Assembly (NCBI GenBank): GCA_030681525.1
Contig: JAUXSD010000084.1
Span: 1 to 64,000 of the forward strand
Length of the DNA: 64,000 nucleotides
Direction of reading: 5' to 3'
Source: Solirubrobacteraceae bacterium
GTDB lineage: Bacteria; Actinomycetota; Thermoleophilia; Solirubrobacterales; Solirubrobacteraceae
Of this stretch, positions 13,863-22,579 are shown piece by piece; position 1 is the first letter of the stretch; each line of letters begins with the position of its first letter. The notes below the pieces were generated by a model, which had not been told where the DNA came from, did not search any database, and saw only the letters and a list, made by a program, of their open reading frames with translations. Position numbers and translations under genes: made by a program.

Positions 13863-14822
13863 ATGATCATCACCGTCACCCTCAACGCCGCGATCGACAA
13901 GTCGCTCTCGGTGCCGAACTTCCGGCTCGGTCGCCGCCACCGGACGGTCGAGCAGACGACGCTGCCGGGCGGCAAGGGCGTCAACGTCGCGCGCACGCTC
14001 AAGACGCTCGGCCAGCCCGTCATCGCGACCGGCTTCGCCGGCGGCGCGACCGGCACGCGGATCGTCGAGGCGCTGACCGACGAGTCGATCCTCAACGACT
14101 TCGTCCGCATCCGCGAGGAGTCGCGCACGAACACCGCGGTGCTCGACCCGACCAACGGCGAGCAGACCGAGATCAACGAGCGCGGGCCAGCCGTCAGCGG
14201 CCGCGAGCTCGAGCTCTTCCGCGACAAGCTCATGTACCTCGCGCGCGGCGCGGCAATCGTCGTCTTCGCCGGATCGCTGCCGCGCAACGTCGACGCCGAC
14301 GTCTACGCCGGCCTCATCAAGGAGCTGCGCAGGCTCGGCCTCGTGGTCGTCATCGACACGGACGGCGACCCGCTGCGCCACGCCGTCCGCGCCGAGCCGC
14401 ACGTCGTCTCGCCCAACGTGCTCGAGGCCGAGGAGCTCGTCGGCCACGAGTTCAACGACGACGAGGACCGCATCATCGCCGTGCGCGAGATCGCCACGCT
14501 GGGCGCCCAGGAGGCGATCATGACCGTCCCCGACGGCTGCTTCGCCCAGGTCATCGACGAGGGCGAGCCGCGGCTGTACCGCGTGTACATCGAGCCGCGC
14601 GAGGCGGTCGCCACGGTCGGCGGCGGCGACGCGTTCCTGGCCGGCTACATCGCGGCGCGCTACGGTGGCAAGCCGCCCGCCGAGTGCCTGCGCTTCGGGG
14701 TGGCCTGCGGCGCCGAGTCCGTGCAGAGGCTGGGCGCGGGGCTGATCGACCCGCAGAAGGTCGAGCGGCTCGTGGGAGAGGTCGACGTGCGCCGGCTGGT
14801 GGCGCCGGCCGAGGTCGGGTAG
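13863..14822 (+). CDS. PfkB-family sugar kinase (1-phosphofructokinase / tagatose-6-P kinase-like)
   Basis: MIITVTLNAAIDKSLSVPNFRLG, LPGGKGVNVARTLKTLG, VGGGDAFLAGY. Confidence 0.9.
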   Translation: MIITVTLNAAIDKSLSVPNFRLGRRHRTVEQTTLPGGKGVNVARTLKTLGQPVIATGFAGGATGTRIVEALTDESILNDFVRIREESRTNTAVLDPTNGEQTEINERGPAVSGRELELFRDKLMYLARGAAIVVFAGSLPRNVDADVYAGLIKELRRLGLVVVIDTDGDPLRHAVRAEPHVVSPNVLEAEELVGHEFNDDEDRIIAVREIATLGAQEAIMTVPDGCFAQVIDEGEPRLYRVYIEPREAVATVGGGDAFLAGYIAARYGGKPPAECLRFGVACGAESVQRLGAGLIDPQKVERLVGEVDVRRLVAPAEVG

Positions 14823-14867: not shown

Positions 14868-15800
14868 ATGCGCCACGCCGCCGTGCGGACCCTCGCGGTC
14901 GACGCTCAGACGGCGGAGGTGATGTCCGCCCTCGCCGCGCGCGGCGTCGAGGGGCTGCTGCTCAAGGGGCTGGTGGTGGCGCGGCGGCTGTACGCGGGAG
15001 ACGAGCCGCGCTTCTACGGCGACACCGACCTCTTCGTGGCGCCGCGATCGCTTGCCGACGCGCGCCGGACGCTCGGCGAGCTCGGCTACGAGCCGTGGGT
15101 CGGTGATCGCAGCGCCGAGCTCATCGGCCACCACGGAACGCACTGGCGGCGGCCGGGCAGCCTGCTCGAGGTCGACCTGCACCACACGCTGACGGGCGTG
15201 CGGGCCGATCCGCAGGCGCTGTGGGACGCGCTGCGCGAGCACACGACCACGATGGAGGTGCACGGCACGCCGGTCCGCGTACCCGCCGACGCGGCGCTCG
15301 CGCTGCACCTCGCGCTGCACGCCGCGCAGCACGGCGTCGCGCGCGAGCGGCCGTGGCACGATCTGCGCCGGGGCATCGAGCACATCGACCGGGCGGGTTG
15401 GCGCGCCGCCGCCGCGCTCGCCGCGCGGGTCGACGCCGTCGATGCCTTCGGGGTGGGGCTGCGGCTGGTGCCGGAGGGCGCCGCGCTCGCGCAGGCCCTC
15501 GCCGTGCCGTCCAACCGCTCGCGCAACGCCGCCCTGCGCGTCATGGCGGCGCCGTCGGTGACGCTCGGCGTCGACCGGCTCAGCGCGACCCCCGGCCTGC
15601 GGACCAAGGCGCGGCTCGTGCTCGGGTGGACGTTCCCGCCGGCGGACTTCATGCGCGAGTGGAGCGCGCTGGCGCGCCGCGGCCGCGCCGGGCTGCTGCT
15701 GGCCTACGCGTGGCGCCCGCTCGCCCTCGCGGGGCAGGCGCGCGCGGCGGTCGTCGCCTGGCGCCGGGCGACGCGCGTCACTCGCGACAGGCGCGCGTGA
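14868..15800 (+). CDS. Nucleotidyltransferase family protein (NTP_transf_5-like), RiPP-cluster associated
   Basis: LLLKGLVVARRLYAGDEPRFYGDTDLFVAPRSLADARRTLGELGY; adjacent to HprK-like/PqqD genes. ATG 14868 chosen; TTG 14844 possible. Confidence 0.8.
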   Translation: MRHAAVRTLAVDAQTAEVMSALAARGVEGLLLKGLVVARRLYAGDEPRFYGDTDLFVAPRSLADARRTLGELGYEPWVGDRSAELIGHHGTHWRRPGSLLEVDLHHTLTGVRADPQALWDALREHTTTMEVHGTPVRVPADAALALHLALHAAQHGVARERPWHDLRRGIEHIDRAGWRAAAALAARVDAVDAFGVGLRLVPEGAALAQALAVPSNRSRNAALRVMAAPSVTLGVDRLSATPGLRTKARLVLGWTFPPADFMREWSALARRGRAGLLLAYAWRPLALAGQARAAVVAWRRATRVTRDRRA

Positions 15801-16672
15801 GCACCGGCGCGACCGCGACCGGCGACCACGTCGCGTTCGGGTTTCGCCTGCACGGCGTGCCGGCGCGCGCGCTGATCCCCGACGACCGGCCCGACTGGCC
15901 GGCCCTGCACGTGACGCAGCGGCTCGGCCCGGCCGGCAGCGCACCGGGCCATCTCGGCGAGTCCGGCGCGCGGCTCTCGCTGGGGGGCGAGGACTGGCTC
16001 GAGCTCGACCGCGGCGCGCAGACCGCGACGTACCGCACGCTGCGGCCCGTCGACGAGGACACGCTCATCCACCCCCGCCTCGCGCCGGCGGCCGCGCTCA
16101 TGGCGCGGTGGCTCGATCGCGAGGCGCTGCACGCCGGCGCGTTCGTCGCGGCGGGCGGCGCCTGGGGCGTCGCCGGCGCCAACCAGGCGGGCAAGAGCAC
16201 GCTGCTCGCCGGCCTCGCCCTGCGCGGCACGCCGGTGTTCAGCGACGACCTGCTGGTCATCGATCGCGCCGGCTTCGCCTACGCCGGGCCGCGCTGCATC
16301 GACCTGCGCCGGCCGGAGGTCCTCGGCGCCGCCGTGGGCGACGGCCTGCGGTCCGTCCGCGAGGAGACGCGCCGGCGCATGGATCTGCCGCCGGTGGCGG
16401 CGGTCGCGCCGCTGCGCGGCTGGTTCTTCCTGGACTGGGGAAGCCGCGTCGAGGCGCTGCCGTGTCGCGCGGGGGCTCGGCTGGGCGGGCTGCTGGCGCA
16501 ACGGCGCTGGGCGACGCAGGCGATCGACCCGCACGTGCTGCTCGCGCTGGCGGCGCTGCCGACGTGGACGCTGCGCCGGCCTCCCGGCGCCGAGCACCTG
16601 GCGGCCACGCTCGCGCTGCTCGACGAGCTGACGGCCGCGGCGGGCTCCCGCGGCAGCGAGGCGGCCGCCTGA
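15797..16672 (+). CDS. HPr kinase/phosphorylase-like protein (lasso-type tailoring kinase candidate)
   Basis: P-loop GVAGANQAGKSTLLAGLALRG, FSDDLLVID, RCIDLRRPEVLG; GTG start overlaps upstream stop. Confidence 0.8.
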   Translation: MSTGATATGDHVAFGFRLHGVPARALIPDDRPDWPALHVTQRLGPAGSAPGHLGESGARLSLGGEDWLELDRGAQTATYRTLRPVDEDTLIHPRLAPAAALMARWLDREALHAGAFVAAGGAWGVAGANQAGKSTLLAGLALRGTPVFSDDLLVIDRAGFAYAGPRCIDLRRPEVLGAAVGDGLRSVREETRRRMDLPPVAAVAPLRGWFFLDWGSRVEALPCRAGARLGGLLAQRRWATQAIDPHVLLALAALPTWTLRRPPGAEHLAATLALLDELTAAAGSRGSEAAA

Positions 16673-16947
16673 TGGGTCCCGCCGAGGGCCGCCTGCACCT
16701 GCGTGACGGGGGCGTGGACTGGAAGGTCCTCGAGGACGAGACGATCGTGCTCGACCTGCGGGGCTCGCGCTACTTCTCGATCAACGCCACCGGCACGCTG
16801 CTGTGGCCGCTGCTGGCGGAGGGCGCGACACGAGCGCAGCTCGTCGCGGCCGTGACCGGGCGCTGGGAGATCTCGGCGGCCGACGCGGGCCGTGATGTCG
16901 ATGCGTTCTGCGCCGAGCTCGAAGCGGCCGGGCTGCTGGAACGCTAG
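16672..16947 (+). CDS. PqqD-family peptide chaperone / RiPP recognition element (lasso B1-like)
   Basis: DWKVLEDETIVLDLRGSRYFSINATGTLLWPLLAEGATRAQLVAAV...VDAFCAELEAAGLLER. Confidence 0.85.
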   Translation: MGPAEGRLHLRDGGVDWKVLEDETIVLDLRGSRYFSINATGTLLWPLLAEGATRAQLVAAVTGRWEISAADAGRDVDAFCAELEAAGLLER

Positions 16948-17330
16948 GCGGGGTGGCGGCTGAGCTCCTCGAAGCCGGCCGAGGCGGTCGCCGGATCGCC
17001 CTCGAGCCATGCGTGCGCCGCGAACGGCGGGCCGTGCCTGACCCCGATCACCAGGTCGCGCGCCGTTCCCTGGCTCGCCAGCCAGCGCTGGCGCACGATC
17101 GCCCGCTCCAGGCACGACCAGCGGGTCCGCCGCACGACCGCGTGCACGCCGCGCCCCGCCGCCCGCGGCAGGTCGGGCACGGGCGGCAGCTCGAGCTCGT
17201 CGAGCGCGGCCGTCCGCAGGCCTCGGTGCGCGGCGGAGCACGCCCGCAGCGCCCAGAGCGCCCCGCGCGCCGCCGCCACGCGGCGGTCGAGCGCCGCTTG
17301 GACGCGCGCACGTGTCGCGGTCGGCCCCAT
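16944..17330 (-). CDS. Transglutaminase-like leader peptidase (lasso peptide biosynthesis B2)
   Basis: RRTRWSCLERAIVRQRWLASQGTARDLVIGVRHGPPFAAHAWLEGD: Cys and His active-site context of the B2 family. Confidence 0.82.
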   Translation of the reverse strand: MGPTATRARVQAALDRRVAAARGALWALRACSAAHRGLRTAALDELELPPVPDLPRAAGRGVHAVVRRTRWSCLERAIVRQRWLASQGTARDLVIGVRHGPPFAAHAWLEGDPATASAGFEELSRHPA

Positions 17331-17368
17331 CTCGCCAAGGGTACGGGCGCGGGTACGCTCACGCCGCG

Positions 17369-18253
17369 ATGGCGGGACCGAACTTCTTCGTGATCGGAGC
17401 GCCCAAGGCCGCGACGACCGCGCTGTACCACGCCCTGCGCGAGCACGACGACGTGTTCCTGCCGGAGGTCAAGGAGCCGCACTTCTACGCCTACCTCGCC
17501 GACCGCTCGGCGGCCGGTCACCTGTACCCCGACGAGGCGAGCGCGCGGCGGCGCTACGCCGAGCTGTACGCGGGCGCCGCCGCAGCGAGCGCGATCGGCG
17601 ACAGCTCGACGACGAACCTCGTCGTCGCGGGCGCGGCGGAGGCGATCGCCGCCGACGTGCCAGACGCTCGCATCGTGGCGATCCTGCGCCAGCCCGTCGA
17701 CCGCGCCTTCGCGCAGTGGTCGCACTTCCGGGCAGCGGGCGGCGAGCCGATCGCCGACTTCGCCGAGGCGGTGCGCCAGGAGGGGCCGCGGCAGGCGGCG
17801 GGCTTTCCGTTCACCTACCGATACCTCCAATGGGGTCGTTACAGCACGCGGCTGCCGGCGTTCTACGAGTGCTTTGGGCGCGACCGCGTGCTCGTGCACC
17901 TCTACGACGATCTCTGTGCCGATCCCGACGCGGTCGTCCGCCGCACCCTGCGCTTTCTCGATCTGGACGACACGCGATTCGTGCCGCGCCTGGAGCGTCG
18001 CAACGAGATGCGGCCGCCGCGGTTTCCCGCCGTGCAGCGCGCCCTCGAAGGCCGGGGCAGGGCCGGGGGAGTGGTCCGCAGGATCGCTCCGGCGCGGGCC
18101 CGCCGCGCCGCGTCGGGCTGGACGGCCGAGCACCTCGGCCGCAAGCCCACGCTCGAGCCGGCGCTGCGCGCCGAGCTCACCGCGCAGTTCACGGCGGAGC
18201 TCGATCGCCTGGAGTCGCTGATCGGCCGCGATCTCTCCGCGTGGCGCGCGTGA
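17369..18253 (+). CDS. Sulfotransferase domain protein
   Basis: FFVIGAPKAATTALYHALREHDDVFLPEVKEPHFY (PAPS 5'-PSB), VAILRQPVDRAFAQWSHF. Confidence 0.88.
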   Translation: MAGPNFFVIGAPKAATTALYHALREHDDVFLPEVKEPHFYAYLADRSAAGHLYPDEASARRRYAELYAGAAAASAIGDSSTTNLVVAGAAEAIAADVPDARIVAILRQPVDRAFAQWSHFRAAGGEPIADFAEAVRQEGPRQAAGFPFTYRYLQWGRYSTRLPAFYECFGRDRVLVHLYDDLCADPDAVVRRTLRFLDLDDTRFVPRLERRNEMRPPRFPAVQRALEGRGRAGGVVRRIAPARARRAASGWTAEHLGRKPTLEPALRAELTAQFTAELDRLESLIGRDLSAWRA

Positions 18254-19431
18254 CCGGCGGCGCATTCCCCGCCGTGCTGCGGCCGGGGCCGCTCGAGATC
18301 GCCTGCGGGCTCGTCGTCGAGCGGGAGCGGCATGCGGCGAAGCTGGGCAGCGAAGCGCCGCACCACCCCCGCGTCGCGTTCGACGACGCCATCCGGCCGG
18401 CGCTGCTGCGGCCGCCGTGCCTGGTCAGCTTCTCCGGCGGGCGCGACTCCTCGGCCGTCCTGGCGGCCGCGGCCGCCCTCGCGCGGCGCGAGGGGCTGGC
18501 GCTGCCGGTCCCGATCACGTATCGCTTTCCCGCCGCTCCCGCCACGCAGGAGGACGAATGGCAGGAGGAGGTCGTCCGTCATCTCGCCCTGCCGGATTGG
18601 GTGCGCATCGCGGTGACCGACGAGCTGGACTCGGTCGGCCCGGTGGCGCAGTCGGTCCTGCGCCGCCACGGCGTCCTGTGGCCGTTCAACGCGCACCTCC
18701 ACGTCCCGCTGCTGGAGCGAGCCGCCGGCGGCACGTTGACGACCGGTGTCGGCGGCGACGAGCTCTTCGGCCCGCAGCGCTGGCGGGTGGCGCAAGCCGT
18801 CCTGACCGGTCGCGCCCGCCCGAAGGCGCGTCACGTCCGCACGGTCGCGCTCGCCCTCGCGCCGGTGCCGGTGCGCCGCGCGGTCCTCGCGCGCCGGCAC
18901 GAGATCCGCTGGCCGTGGCTGCACCCGCCGGTGGAGGCGCGCGTCAACCGCGCGCGGGCCGACTGGCAGGCGCGCATGCCGGTGCGCTGGGATGCCGCGG
19001 TCGGGTGGTGGTGGCAGAGCCGGACGCGCCGCGTGCTGGCTGAGACCAAAGCGATCCTCGGCGCCGACTCGGACACGGCGGTCGTCCAGCCGTTCCTCGA
19101 GCCGGCCGTGCTCGCCGCCGCGGCGCGCCAGTTCGGCCAGCGCGGTCCGCGCGACCGCACGACCGCGCTGCGCGCCCTCTTCGGCGATGTGCTGCCCGAC
19201 CGGGTCCTGGCCCGTCGCTCCAAGGCGACGTTCAACGAGGCGTTCTTCTCCGACCACAGCCGTGCGTTCGCGGCGCGGTGGAGCGGTGCCGGGGTTGACA
19301 GAACTCTGGTAGATCATGAAGAAGTCGCCGCAATGTGGAATGCTGTGCGACCCGACCCGCGTTCGTTCTCGCTCATGCAGGCCGCTTGGCTGGCAAGCGA
19401 GGGGCTGAATGACCAGGAGGAGCGCATATGA
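18250..19431 (+). CDS. Asparagine-synthetase-like protein (lasso isopeptide cyclase C candidate), lacking N-terminal glutaminase domain
   Basis: [22 protein letters not shown]-loop, LTTGVGGDELFG, RSKATFNEAFF; GTG start overlaps sulfotransferase stop. Confidence 0.82.
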   Translation: MTGGAFPAVLRPGPLEIACGLVVERERHAAKLGSEAPHHPRVAFDDAIRPALLRPPCLVSFSGGRDSSAVLAAAAALARREGLALPVPITYRFPAAPATQEDEWQEEVVRHLALPDWVRIAVTDELDSVGPVAQSVLRRHGVLWPFNAHLHVPLLERAAGGTLTTGVGGDELFGPQRWRVAQAVLTGRARPKARHVRTVALALAPVPVRRAVLARRHEIRWPWLHPPVEARVNRARADWQARMPVRWDAAVGWWWQSRTRRVLAETKAILGADSDTAVVQPFLEPAVLAAAARQFGQRGPRDRTTALRALFGDVLPDRVLARRSKATFNEAFFSDHSRAFAARWSGAGVDRTLVDHEEVAAMWNAVRPDPRSFSLMQAAWLASEGLNDQEERI

Positions 19432-19601
19432 CGCCGGACGAGAGGCAGATCAGTACCAACCATGCGGGTGACGCGGATGCGAGCTACAGCCCGCCGACCG
19501 TGACGTTTCTCGGCACGCTTGGCGAGCTCACGCAGAAGACCGTCGGCGAGGCCGACGGCGAGACCTTCCTGGGGCTCGACATCGGCGAAGTCGGGAGCTG
19601 A
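19428..19601 (+). CDS. Lasso-type RiPP precursor peptide
   Basis: 57-aa ORF not in supplied track: MTPDERQISTNHAGDADASYSPPTVTFLGTLGELTQKTVGEADGETFLGLDIGEVGS. Leader Y20-xx-P23-x-V25-xxx-G29-xxxxx-T35; ATGA overlap with cyclase; GGAGG-type SD upstream. Confidence 0.82.
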   Translation: MTPDERQISTNHAGDADASYSPPTVTFLGTLGELTQKTVGEADGETFLGLDIGEVGS

Positions 19602-19605
19602 CCTC

Positions 19606-21375
19606 CTGGCACGAGCGGACCTCGCCCCGGCACGCGATCTGCGCGCCTGGTGGGCGAGCGTCACGTTCGGCACGCGGCGGCCCGGCCGGCGAGTCGCAGC
19701 GCTGGGCCTCCTCGGCGCGATCAGCGGCGTGGGGGAGGCGGTCGTCGTCCTGCTGCTCGTCGCGCTGGTCGCGCGTGACGGAGCAGGGCTCCCGGCGCTC
19801 GTGCCCGACGCGGGAACGTGGTCGCTGGCGGCACTGGCGCTCGCCGCGGTGGGCGTTCTCGGCGCGGCCCATCTGAGCTCCGCCTGGGTCGCGGCACGCG
19901 CCGCCGCGGACGCGCAGCGCTCGCTGCAGCTCATGCTGCTCGACGCCTTCCTGCACGCATCCTGGCAGGCACAGCGGGCCTCGCCGCCGGGGGAGCTGCA
20001 GGAGCTCGTGACAGGCAAGGCGCGCCTGGCGGTCCACGGCACCGCGGACGCGGCCAAGGCGCTCGCGACCGCCGCCAACCTGCTCATCATCGTGTCGGTC
20101 GCGATCCTCGTGGACGTTCGCGTGACCGCCGGGCTGATCGCCGTCGTCGCGTTCGCCGTGCTGGTCGCGCGCCCGTTCCAGGCCCGGACACGGAGGATCG
20201 CCGTGCGCACGGCGGCGGCGTCGTCGGAGCTCGCCGGGCGGGTCGCCGACACCGCCCGGCTCGCCGCCGACCTGCGAATCTTCGGCGTCGGCGACCGCGC
20301 GCGCGAGGGGCTGGCCGGCAGCGTCGGCGCCACGGCCCGCCTCGCGCGGGAGATCCACCTGTCCGCGACCGCGACGCCGGCGCTGACGCGCGATGCCACG
20401 CTCGCGGTCCTCGTCGTCGCGATGGCGATCGTCGTGACCTCCGCCGACGTGGGCCTGACCGTGCTCGCCGCGGCCGTCGTGCTGCTGCTGCGTGCGCTGT
20501 CGCACGCCCAGGCGCTGTCGAGCACGCTGCACCGGCTGGCCGACCGCTGGGCGAACCTCGCGCCGATCCTGGAGCGCCTCGAGCGCTGGCGCCCCGCGGC
20601 CGAGCCGGGCCGGCGGCCCTGCCCGCAGATCGGCGCGGTCGAGCTGCGTGACGTCAGCGTCGCCTACGCCCCCGACGCGCCCGACGTGCTGGCGGCGGCG
20701 AGCCTGGTCATCGGCGCGGGCGAGCAGCTCGGCGTCGTCGGCCCGACCGGCGCCGGCAAGTCCACGCTGGCGGCCACGCTGCTCGGTCTGCTGGCTCCGC
20801 GGGAGGGGAGCGTCCTCGTCGACGGCGTCTCGCTGGCCGAGCTCGATCCCGCCGACTGGCACGCGCGGGTCGCCTGGGTCTCGCAGGATCCGCTCCTGCT
20901 GACCGGAACCGTGCGCGAGAACATCCGCTTCCTGCGCCCGCACGTCGACGACGCGGCGGTCGAGCGCGCCGCCCACGCCGCCGTGCTGGGCACCGACATC
21001 GCCGGCTGGAGCGACGGCCTGGATCACCCCGTCGGGCCGGCCGGGTCGGCGCTGTCGGGCGGCCAGCGCCAGCGCGTCGCGCTCGCGCGGGCGCTGGCCG
21101 GCGACCCGCAGCTCGTCGTGCTCGACGAGCCCACCAGCGCCCTCGACGTCCACACCGAGGTGGCCGTGCGCGAGACCCTGGCGGCGCTGCGGGGGCGGGC
21201 CGTGGTGGTGGTCATCGCGCACCGCCTGTCGACCGTGAACCTGTGTGACCGCGTGGCGGTCATGCGGGCCGGTCGGGTCGTGGCGCTCGGCGATCCCCGC
21301 GAGCTGGCCGAGCGCGACCCGTACTTTCGTGAGGTGCTCGCGCTCTCGGCATCGGCGCCGGCGGCGCGCACATGA
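19606..21375 (+). CDS. ABC transporter, fused permease/ATPase (exporter of the RiPP locus)
   Basis: GPTGAGKSTLAATLLGLL, LSGGQRQRVALARAL, LVVLDEPTSALD; six-TM N-terminal half. Start uncertain: CTG 19606 behind GGGAG, or TTG 19519 overlapping the precursor. Confidence 0.85.
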   Translation: MARADLAPARDLRAWWASVTFGTRRPGRRVAALGLLGAISGVGEAVVVLLLVALVARDGAGLPALVPDAGTWSLAALALAAVGVLGAAHLSSAWVAARAAADAQRSLQLMLLDAFLHASWQAQRASPPGELQELVTGKARLAVHGTADAAKALATAANLLIIVSVAILVDVRVTAGLIAVVAFAVLVARPFQARTRRIAVRTAAASSELAGRVADTARLAADLRIFGVGDRAREGLAGSVGATARLAREIHLSATATPALTRDATLAVLVVAMAIVVTSADVGLTVLAAAVVLLLRALSHAQALSSTLHRLADRWANLAPILERLERWRPAAEPGRRPCPQIGAVELRDVSVAYAPDAPDVLAAASLVIGAGEQLGVVGPTGAGKSTLAATLLGLLAPREGSVLVDGVSLAELDPADWHARVAWVSQDPLLLTGTVRENIRFLRPHVDDAAVERAAHAAVLGTDIAGWSDGLDHPVGPAGSALSGGQRQRVALARALAGDPQLVVLDEPTSALDVHTEVAVRETLAALRGRAVVVVIAHRLSTVNLCDRVAVMRAGRVVALGDPRELAERDPYFREVLALSASAPAART

Positions 21376-21535: not shown

Positions 21536-22579
21536 ATGACTCGCATCGCGCTCATCACCGCCGCCCTGCTCGTCGCGCTCGCCGCCGGCACGTTCGGCGC
21601 GCTCGCCTGGGCCGACGGCAGCGCCTCCGGCACGCTGCCCGCGGGCACCCGCGTGGGCGGCGTCGACGTGGGCGGCCTCAACCAGCAGGAGGCGATCGCG
21701 CGGGCGCGGGATCGCGTCCATTCGGCGATCGCGCGGCCGACCTACGTCCGGCTCGGCGAGAAGCGCTACACGCTCGGCCCGTCCGAGGCGGGCGTGCGCA
21801 TCGACGTCGAGACCGCGGTCAAGCGCGCCTACGTCGAGAGCCGCGAGGGCTCCTTCATCAGCCGGGGGTGGCGCAAGATCACCGGCGCCGAGCTCGATCA
21901 GAACGTCCCGGTCAAGGCCGTGGCGGATCGTCTGAAGGTGCGCCGCTTCGTGGAGGGCATCGCCAAGCAGCAGGCGCGCGCGCCGGTCGACTCCGCGCTG
22001 AACATCACGCTCACGAGCGTCTCCGTGACGCGCAGCAAGCCCGGTCGCCGCCTCGCCGCGCGCGACGCGCTCGTCGCGCGCCTCATGCGCCGGCTGACGA
22101 GCAGCACCGACGAGCGCACGCTGCGCGCCAAGACCGTCGAGGTGCCCGCGAAGGCCAACGCCGACGCGATCTGGGACGCCAACCCGCTGGCCGTCACGGT
22201 CTCGCGCGATGGCAAGCAGGCGCGCCTGTTCCGGCGCGGCAAGCTCGTCAAGACCTACCGCGTGGCCGTCGGCACCCCCAAGTACCCCACGCCGACCGGG
22301 CGCTACGTCGTCCAGACGATGCAGAAGAACCCGGCGTGGAACGTGCCGCAGTCCGAGTGGGCCGGCGACCTCGCCGGTCAGACGATCCCCGGCGGCGACC
22401 CGCGCAACCCGCTCGTCGCGCGCTGGATCGGCTTCAACGGCTCGGTCGGCTTCCACGGCACCGCGAGCTCCGGCTCGCTGGGCACCGCCGCCTCGCACGG
22501 CTGCGTGCGCATGTCGCCGGCGGACGTCATCGACCTGTTCGAGCGGGTGCGGACCGGCACGCCGGTCTACGTCGCGTAG
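21536..22579 (+). CDS. L,D-transpeptidase (YkuD) with N-terminal peptidoglycan-binding region
   Basis: TM/signal, ARLFRRGKLVKTYRVAVGTPKYPTPTGRY, GFHGTASSGSLGTAASHGCVRM catalytic motif. Confidence 0.92.
   Translation: MTRIALITAALLVALAAGTFGALAWADGSASGTLPAGTRVGGVDVGGLNQQEAIARARDRVHSAIARPTYVRLGEKRYTLGPSEAGVRIDVETAVKRAYVESREGSFISRGWRKITGAELDQNVPVKAVADRLKVRRFVEGIAKQQARAPVDSALNITLTSVSVTRSKPGRRLAARDALVARLMRRLTSSTDERTLRAKTVEVPAKANADAIWDANPLAVTVSRDGKQARLFRRGKLVKTYRVAVGTPKYPTPTGRYVVQTMQKNPAWNVPQSEWAGDLAGQTIPGGDPRNPLVARWIGFNGSVGFHGTASSGSLGTAASHGCVRMSPADVIDLFERVRTGTPVYVA

Follow-up and report, generated by a model that had tools for sequence, protein, structure and literature searches.

The window analyzed here, a 64,000-nucleotide stretch from the genome of a soil actinobacterium (4.56-Mb assembly, 352 contigs), carries an intact lasso-peptide gene cluster that profile searches placed at positions 14868-21375. 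The genes that identify a lasso cluster are all present, namely an RRE (B1) protein, a transglutaminase-like B2 leader peptidase, an asparagine-synthetase-like cyclase and a precursor. The order is nucleotidyltransferase (NTase), HprK-like kinase, RRE, B2 (minus strand), sulfotransferase, cyclase, precursor and ABC exporter, with the following features:

14868-15800, plus strand: nucleotidyltransferase, NTP_transf_5 (PF14907, 3.7e-27)
15797-16672, plus strand: HprK-like kinase with H112, P-loop K133, D150 and D151; starts with GTG and overlaps the NTase gene by 4 bp
16672-16947, plus strand: RRE, a PqqD-like B1 protein (PF05402, 2.9e-16; lasso_PqqD_Strm, 4.6e-14, under the curated cut-off)
16944-17330, minus strand: B2 leader peptidase (NF033537, 52 bits, cut-off 33), its Cys/His/Asp legible in the sequence
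17369-18253, plus strand: sulfotransferase (PF13469, 1.3e-16)
18250-19431, plus strand: lasso cyclase (C), short form, with an SFSGGRDSS motif (PF00733, 1.6e-11)
19428-19601, plus strand: precursor peptide A of 57 aa (leader 1-36, core K37-S57)
19536-19556, plus strand: core segment K37-x5-D43 (KTVGEAD), a candidate ring segment; K-x5-D recurs beside the kinase clade
19596-19598, plus strand: codon of Ser57, candidate phosphoacceptor; sole core Ser, with near-terminal Ser enriched in the family
19603-21375, plus strand: ABC exporter (PF00005, 1.1e-29)

The initial annotation had described the locus as 14868-19601; these positions are right, but the cluster continues through the ABC exporter to 21375. 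Both types of modifying enzyme that it named, as well as the sulfotransferase, are indeed encoded, while the RRE gene (16672-16947) and the minus-strand B2 gene (17330-16944) were missing from its list. The flanking genes, which encode a PfkB kinase (13863-14822, upstream) and an L,D-transpeptidase (21536-22579, downstream), are unrelated to the cluster, and an Rfam search over 13.8-22 kb gave no match. The set of kinase, RRE, B2 and cyclase, usually with an NTase, was found again in about 20 actinobacterial loci, and its co-occurrence is thus beyond chance. No viral contig carrying the kinase appeared in our scan, and no plasmid carrying the cyclase in our search.

The B2 gene is convergent with the RRE gene, which it overlaps by 4 bp, and is inverted relative to the other genes of the cluster. 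Most of the kinase clade's other loci have B2 after the RRE on a single strand. The orientation in the window is a local inversion; a look for inverted repeats flanking the flipped gene gave nothing clear.

The ATG of the precursor gene overlaps the stop codon of the cyclase gene (ATGA), with AGGAGG just upstream. The encoded peptide ends in ...LDIGEVGS, which bears out the ...GEVGS terminus read initially, and scores 13.9 bits against lasso_leader_L3, under the cut-off. Its leader contains YxxPxV, in which the L of YxxPxL is replaced by V. By both leader rulers Lys37 is core residue 1, and the core, KTVGEADGETFLGLDIGEVGS, has a single Ser (Ser57) and, as noted previously, no Tyr. Lasso rings require an acid at core position 7-9 (PMC10368454), and the window core has both D7 and E9.

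The HprK-like kinase and its probable phosphoacceptor

The kinase has no family match in Pfam and scores 21.8 bits against TIGR04352 and 12.3 bits against TIGR04355, far under the curated cut-off of 200; by sequence, it is related only weakly to HprK-related kinase A (TIGR04352). The HprK-like identity given to it initially is upheld by motif and fold, although it belongs to no curated HprK family. H112, K133, D150 and D151 are invariant in an alignment of 22 kinase homologues and match the published His-Lys-Asp-Asp of lasso kinases, residues reported to be essential in ThcoK-type kinases (PMC9266682) and in BsfK (PMC10368454). The AlphaFold model (pLDDT 89.2) matches PEPCK and HprK/P structures, and the protein is the sole match of its type in the genome.

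In a tree of 59 kinases, the window kinase falls within clade I (39 members, support 100/98), which includes a subclade Ib from Mycobacteriales-type genomes (support 96/92); we refer to clade I minus Ib as clade Ia and to the remaining kinases of the tree as clade II. A conserved-pattern scan from a three-sequence kinase alignment returned six loci, two already in the collection. Five related lasso loci (L026, L034, L028, L124, and L129) each encode two diverged HprK-like kinases.

Precursors were gathered beside the kinases of each clade by leader patterns, with the core ignored, so that those with other leaders were missed; this gave 27 distinct precursors for clade Ia and 22 for the comparison sample (Ib plus II). 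A C-terminal Ser is found in 14 of the 27 and 4 of the 22 (Fisher p 0.019), and a Ser within the last two residues in 20/27 and 9/22, respectively (Fisher p 0.023), a modest excess over controls (p ~0.02) in sequences that are related, such that p-values overstate their independence. Subject to the same relatedness, terminal Ser in clade Ia is enriched over the core Ser frequency of 0.09 (p 1.5e-8), and 17 of 20 precursors with the Lys-Asp pair described below have Ser in the last two residues (p 0.0046). Precursors of the sister kinases at L091, L092 (core beginning TDKKYGVSDGFTF...) and L090 end in NAS, NASS, and NASP; Ser is constant and the last residue varies. Several relatives have one residue beyond the Ser (TSG, VSN, CSA, ASP, VSE, and GSI), while L094 (PAR), L023 (HTR), and L116 (LVL) have no Ser near the end. 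A C-terminal Ser was rejected as a rule for all HprK-like kinases in the phylum, given its low count in the other clades (only 4/22).

The catalytic motif, the fold, the sole core Ser and the enrichment of near-terminal Ser beside the kinase clade support Ser57 as the probable phosphoacceptor. Phosphorylation of the C-terminal Ser had been proposed initially from gene content, an argument that is weaker than was stated. ThcoK, SyanK, and PsmK phosphorylate the C-terminal Ser (PMC9266682); BsfK, however, phosphorylates Ser3 in a lasso precursor ending in Asp (PMC10368454) and LppK likewise targets Ser3, in the core of a RiPP outside the lasso class (PMC13381572), so that kinase gene content alone is insufficient to assign a C-terminal target. 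These two enzymes also lend some weight to an internal or ring hydroxyl as the target, for which Thr38 (core position 2) would be the candidate: BsfK acts efficiently on an S3T variant, its cluster likewise has an NTase (PMC10368454), and the precursors of other kinase clades in the phylum mostly do without a C-terminal Ser. Such a target is nonetheless unlikely, as the near-terminal Ser is better conserved than any internal hydroxyl, only about one in two family members has Ser/Thr immediately before the Asp, and the window ring has no Ser. A role of the kinase/NTase pair in self-immunity, or in something other than peptide modification, might be read from a kinase that scores under all curated kinase cut-offs. 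We consider this very improbable, given that the kinase is consistently linked to lasso genes and near-terminal Ser and that kinases sharing its motif have lasso precursors as substrates (PMC9266682, PMC10368454).

A Lys-Asp pair in the cores and its possible role in ring closure

Clade Ia cores otherwise look unrelated, but 18 of the 27 contain K-x5-D, often followed by G, compared with 2 of the 22 controls (p 4e-5, for a motif spotted in these same data and not predicted beforehand). In 5000 shuffles, the mean was 1.9 and the maximum 7. Besides KTVGEAD in the window, examples include KKYGVSD, KDYVGSD, KQFGGTD, KDATGTD, and KSFGAAD, as well as KHGRKSD, KDFSGND, KTAGTGD, and KVGTTPD; L088 and L095 have x6 spacing in place of x5. 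Lys-Asp precursors also occur in other actinobacteria (L039-L042 and L106-L109), those named being Modestobacter, Actinotalea, Cellulomonas, and Jatrophihabitans.

The leader never varies at Tyr(-17) and Thr(-2) across the 20 Lys-Asp precursors (the window and 19 relatives), and PMC10368454 gives the same two positions for lasso leaders. Counted from the leader-defined cut, the Asp of these precursors lies at core positions 7-13 and the Lys 0-6 residues past the cut, or 8 and 12 in the doubtful pair L116 and L023, weak members whose K-x5-D matches, with long extensions, may have arisen by chance. In most relatives, the conserved Lys is 2-6 residues into the core. We rejected the alternative that Lys is residue 1 in all relatives, since Thr stands two before Lys in only 4, whereas the leader Thr is fixed. 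The kinase clade also includes short cores of about 6-13 residues, at L020 (9414-9560), L096 (12033-12125), and L098 (10494-10658), which are too short for a usual lasso.

The cyclases of clade Ia read SFSGG-R-DSS in 17/17 alignment rows, those of clade Ib, whose precursors are canonical, SFSGG-L-DSS in 4/4. Other residues occupy the R position in the L020 and L023 cyclases, and at L098 and L116 a clade Ia cyclase with R accompanies a core with no pair or only a doubtful one. Clade I cyclases generally have only about 40-70 residues ahead of the SFSGG motif, and structural matches to the model of the window cyclase (pLDDT 91) fall in the asparagine synthetase / beta-lactam synthetase family. 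Judged by the motif, the clade Ia cyclases fit a distinct subtype.

An acid at core 7-9 is found in 21/22 controls and only 10/27 clade Ia precursors (p 1.9e-5). Because the acid often falls outside core 7-9, closure on a side chain is possible, and the conserved Lys 2-6 residues into the core in most relatives points to the side chain for the family; the amine that closes these rings may be that of the Lys side chain rather than the N-terminal one. Ring-atom counts accommodate this, with 26 atoms when the Lys side chain is joined to Asp at +6 and 29 when it is joined to Asp at +7 (canonical range 22-29), although alpha-amine closure, at 22 or 25 atoms, is also permitted by the arithmetic. We tentatively suggest, as possible rather than probable, that the family ring joins the Lys side chain to the Asp six residues on, its 26 atoms equaling those of an 8-residue Glu ring, with 0-6 residues left free at the N-terminus and a phospho-decorated Ser at the opposite end. 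This would be a two-tailed lasso, made by a short SGGR-loop cyclase.

We would give even odds to an ordinary ring, in which the N-terminal amine closes on Asp43 (7 residues) or Glu45 (9), K-x5-D is structural, and relatives have 9-13-residue rings or undergo further trimming of the core. In the window, a canonical ring is available because Lys37 is residue 1, and the fusilassin enzymes have formed a ring of ten residues in vitro (PMC8498205). Less easily accommodated are the relatives, in which the distance from cut to acid ranges over 9-13 while that from Lys to Asp is constant at 6 (7 in L088 and L095), and the scarcity of acids at 7-9 relative to the other clades. In the literature searched, whose coverage left out most subscription journals, we found no lasso ring closure other than on the N-terminal amine. 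If the Lys-Asp reading is true, the family would be an exception to N-terminal-amine closure on an acid at 7-9, rule-based genome mining would overlook or mis-call such precursors, and the free N-terminus beside the ring would provide a new engineering handle.

Accessory enzymes, proposed pathway and known systems

An NTase (PF14907) lies alongside the kinase in most relatives; no NTase gene was found in the stretch examined at L090, L092, and L093, and it is thus not obligatory. By analogy with PsmN of pseudomycoidin, the NTase would plausibly act on the phosphate of phospho-Ser. For PsmN, hexose transfer was seen, with nucleotidylation and then a host glycosyltransferase as an alternative route (PMC9266682). 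The closest PDB match of the sulfotransferase is the bacterial sulfotransferase 3rnl (5.5e-40), followed by heparan-sulfate sulfotransferases (3e-5 to 3e-4). No sulfotransferase was found in other annotated loci of the window's kinase clade, and we therefore rejected it as a member of the conserved module. Any sulfation had initially been placed on Thr, Ser or Lys; a sugar is a reasonable target given the heparan-sulfate sulfotransferases among the PDB relatives, and one added by the NTase seems at least as likely. Lys37 is a poor candidate because it is probably a ring residue.

We propose, with a probability of roughly 0.6, that the product of the locus is a lasso peptide carrying a modification on its C-terminal Ser. 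The RRE would bind the YxxPxV leader, the HprK-like kinase would phosphorylate Ser57 on the linear precursor, and the NTase would then place a nucleotide or sugar on the Ser57 phosphate. B2 would cleave after Gln36 (Thr35 being -2 and Gln36 -1), and the cyclase would activate Asp43 (core position 7) and join it to an amine of Lys37; in the window, this amine could be that of the side chain or the alpha-amine, the latter giving a ring of 7 residues, or of 9 if Glu45 were used. The ABC protein would export the product, with sulfation potentially a late, strain-specific addition.

The window adds a member to the kinase/NTase lasso clusters; should the Lys-Asp core of the family form the ring, it would count as a new variant. 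With the paeninodin-type systems (PadeK, ThcoK, and SyanK; Zhu et al., 2016), as described in PMC9266682 and PMC8498205, the window shares the cyclase, leader peptidase, exporter, an HprK-like kinase with His-Lys-Asp-Asp and a precursor with C-terminal Ser. Those systems have been reported from Firmicutes and Proteobacteria, whereas the window, from Actinomycetota, has a kinase of a distinct clade, a short-form cyclase and a K-x5-D core, in a family where C-terminal Ser is not strict. Pseudomycoidin (PsmK and PsmN; Zyubko et al., 2019, as covered in PMC9266682) shares the kinase, NTase and C-terminal Ser; the window differs by its sulfotransferase, its inverted B2 and an NTase activity that is predicted. 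The Bradymonas Bsf cluster (BsfK and BsfN; PMC10368454) has the same kinase, NTase, RRE, B2, cyclase and exporter, but BsfK modifies ring Ser3 and the precursor has Ile(-2) and ends in Asp, in contrast to Thr(-2) and no ring Ser in the window. LPP RiPPs (LppK and LppN; PMC13381572) share the RRE, HprK-like kinase, NTP transferase and exporter; they use a signal-peptidase-like protease, and their core set is without the lasso cyclase and B2 that the window has.

In the reviews consulted, Actinomycetota are not listed among the sources of phosphorylated lasso peptides. If the phosphorylation reading is true, lasso peptides modified at a C-terminal Ser would extend to this phylum, with a third, sulfated layer possible.

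A further arrangement was observed at L024 (10277-10772), where two clade I kinases, an NTase, an RRE and B2 occur with no cyclase found in 20 kb. Its three precursors have a lasso-type leader followed by few residues (TLQTG, TLQTGIP, and TLQTGIPGG).
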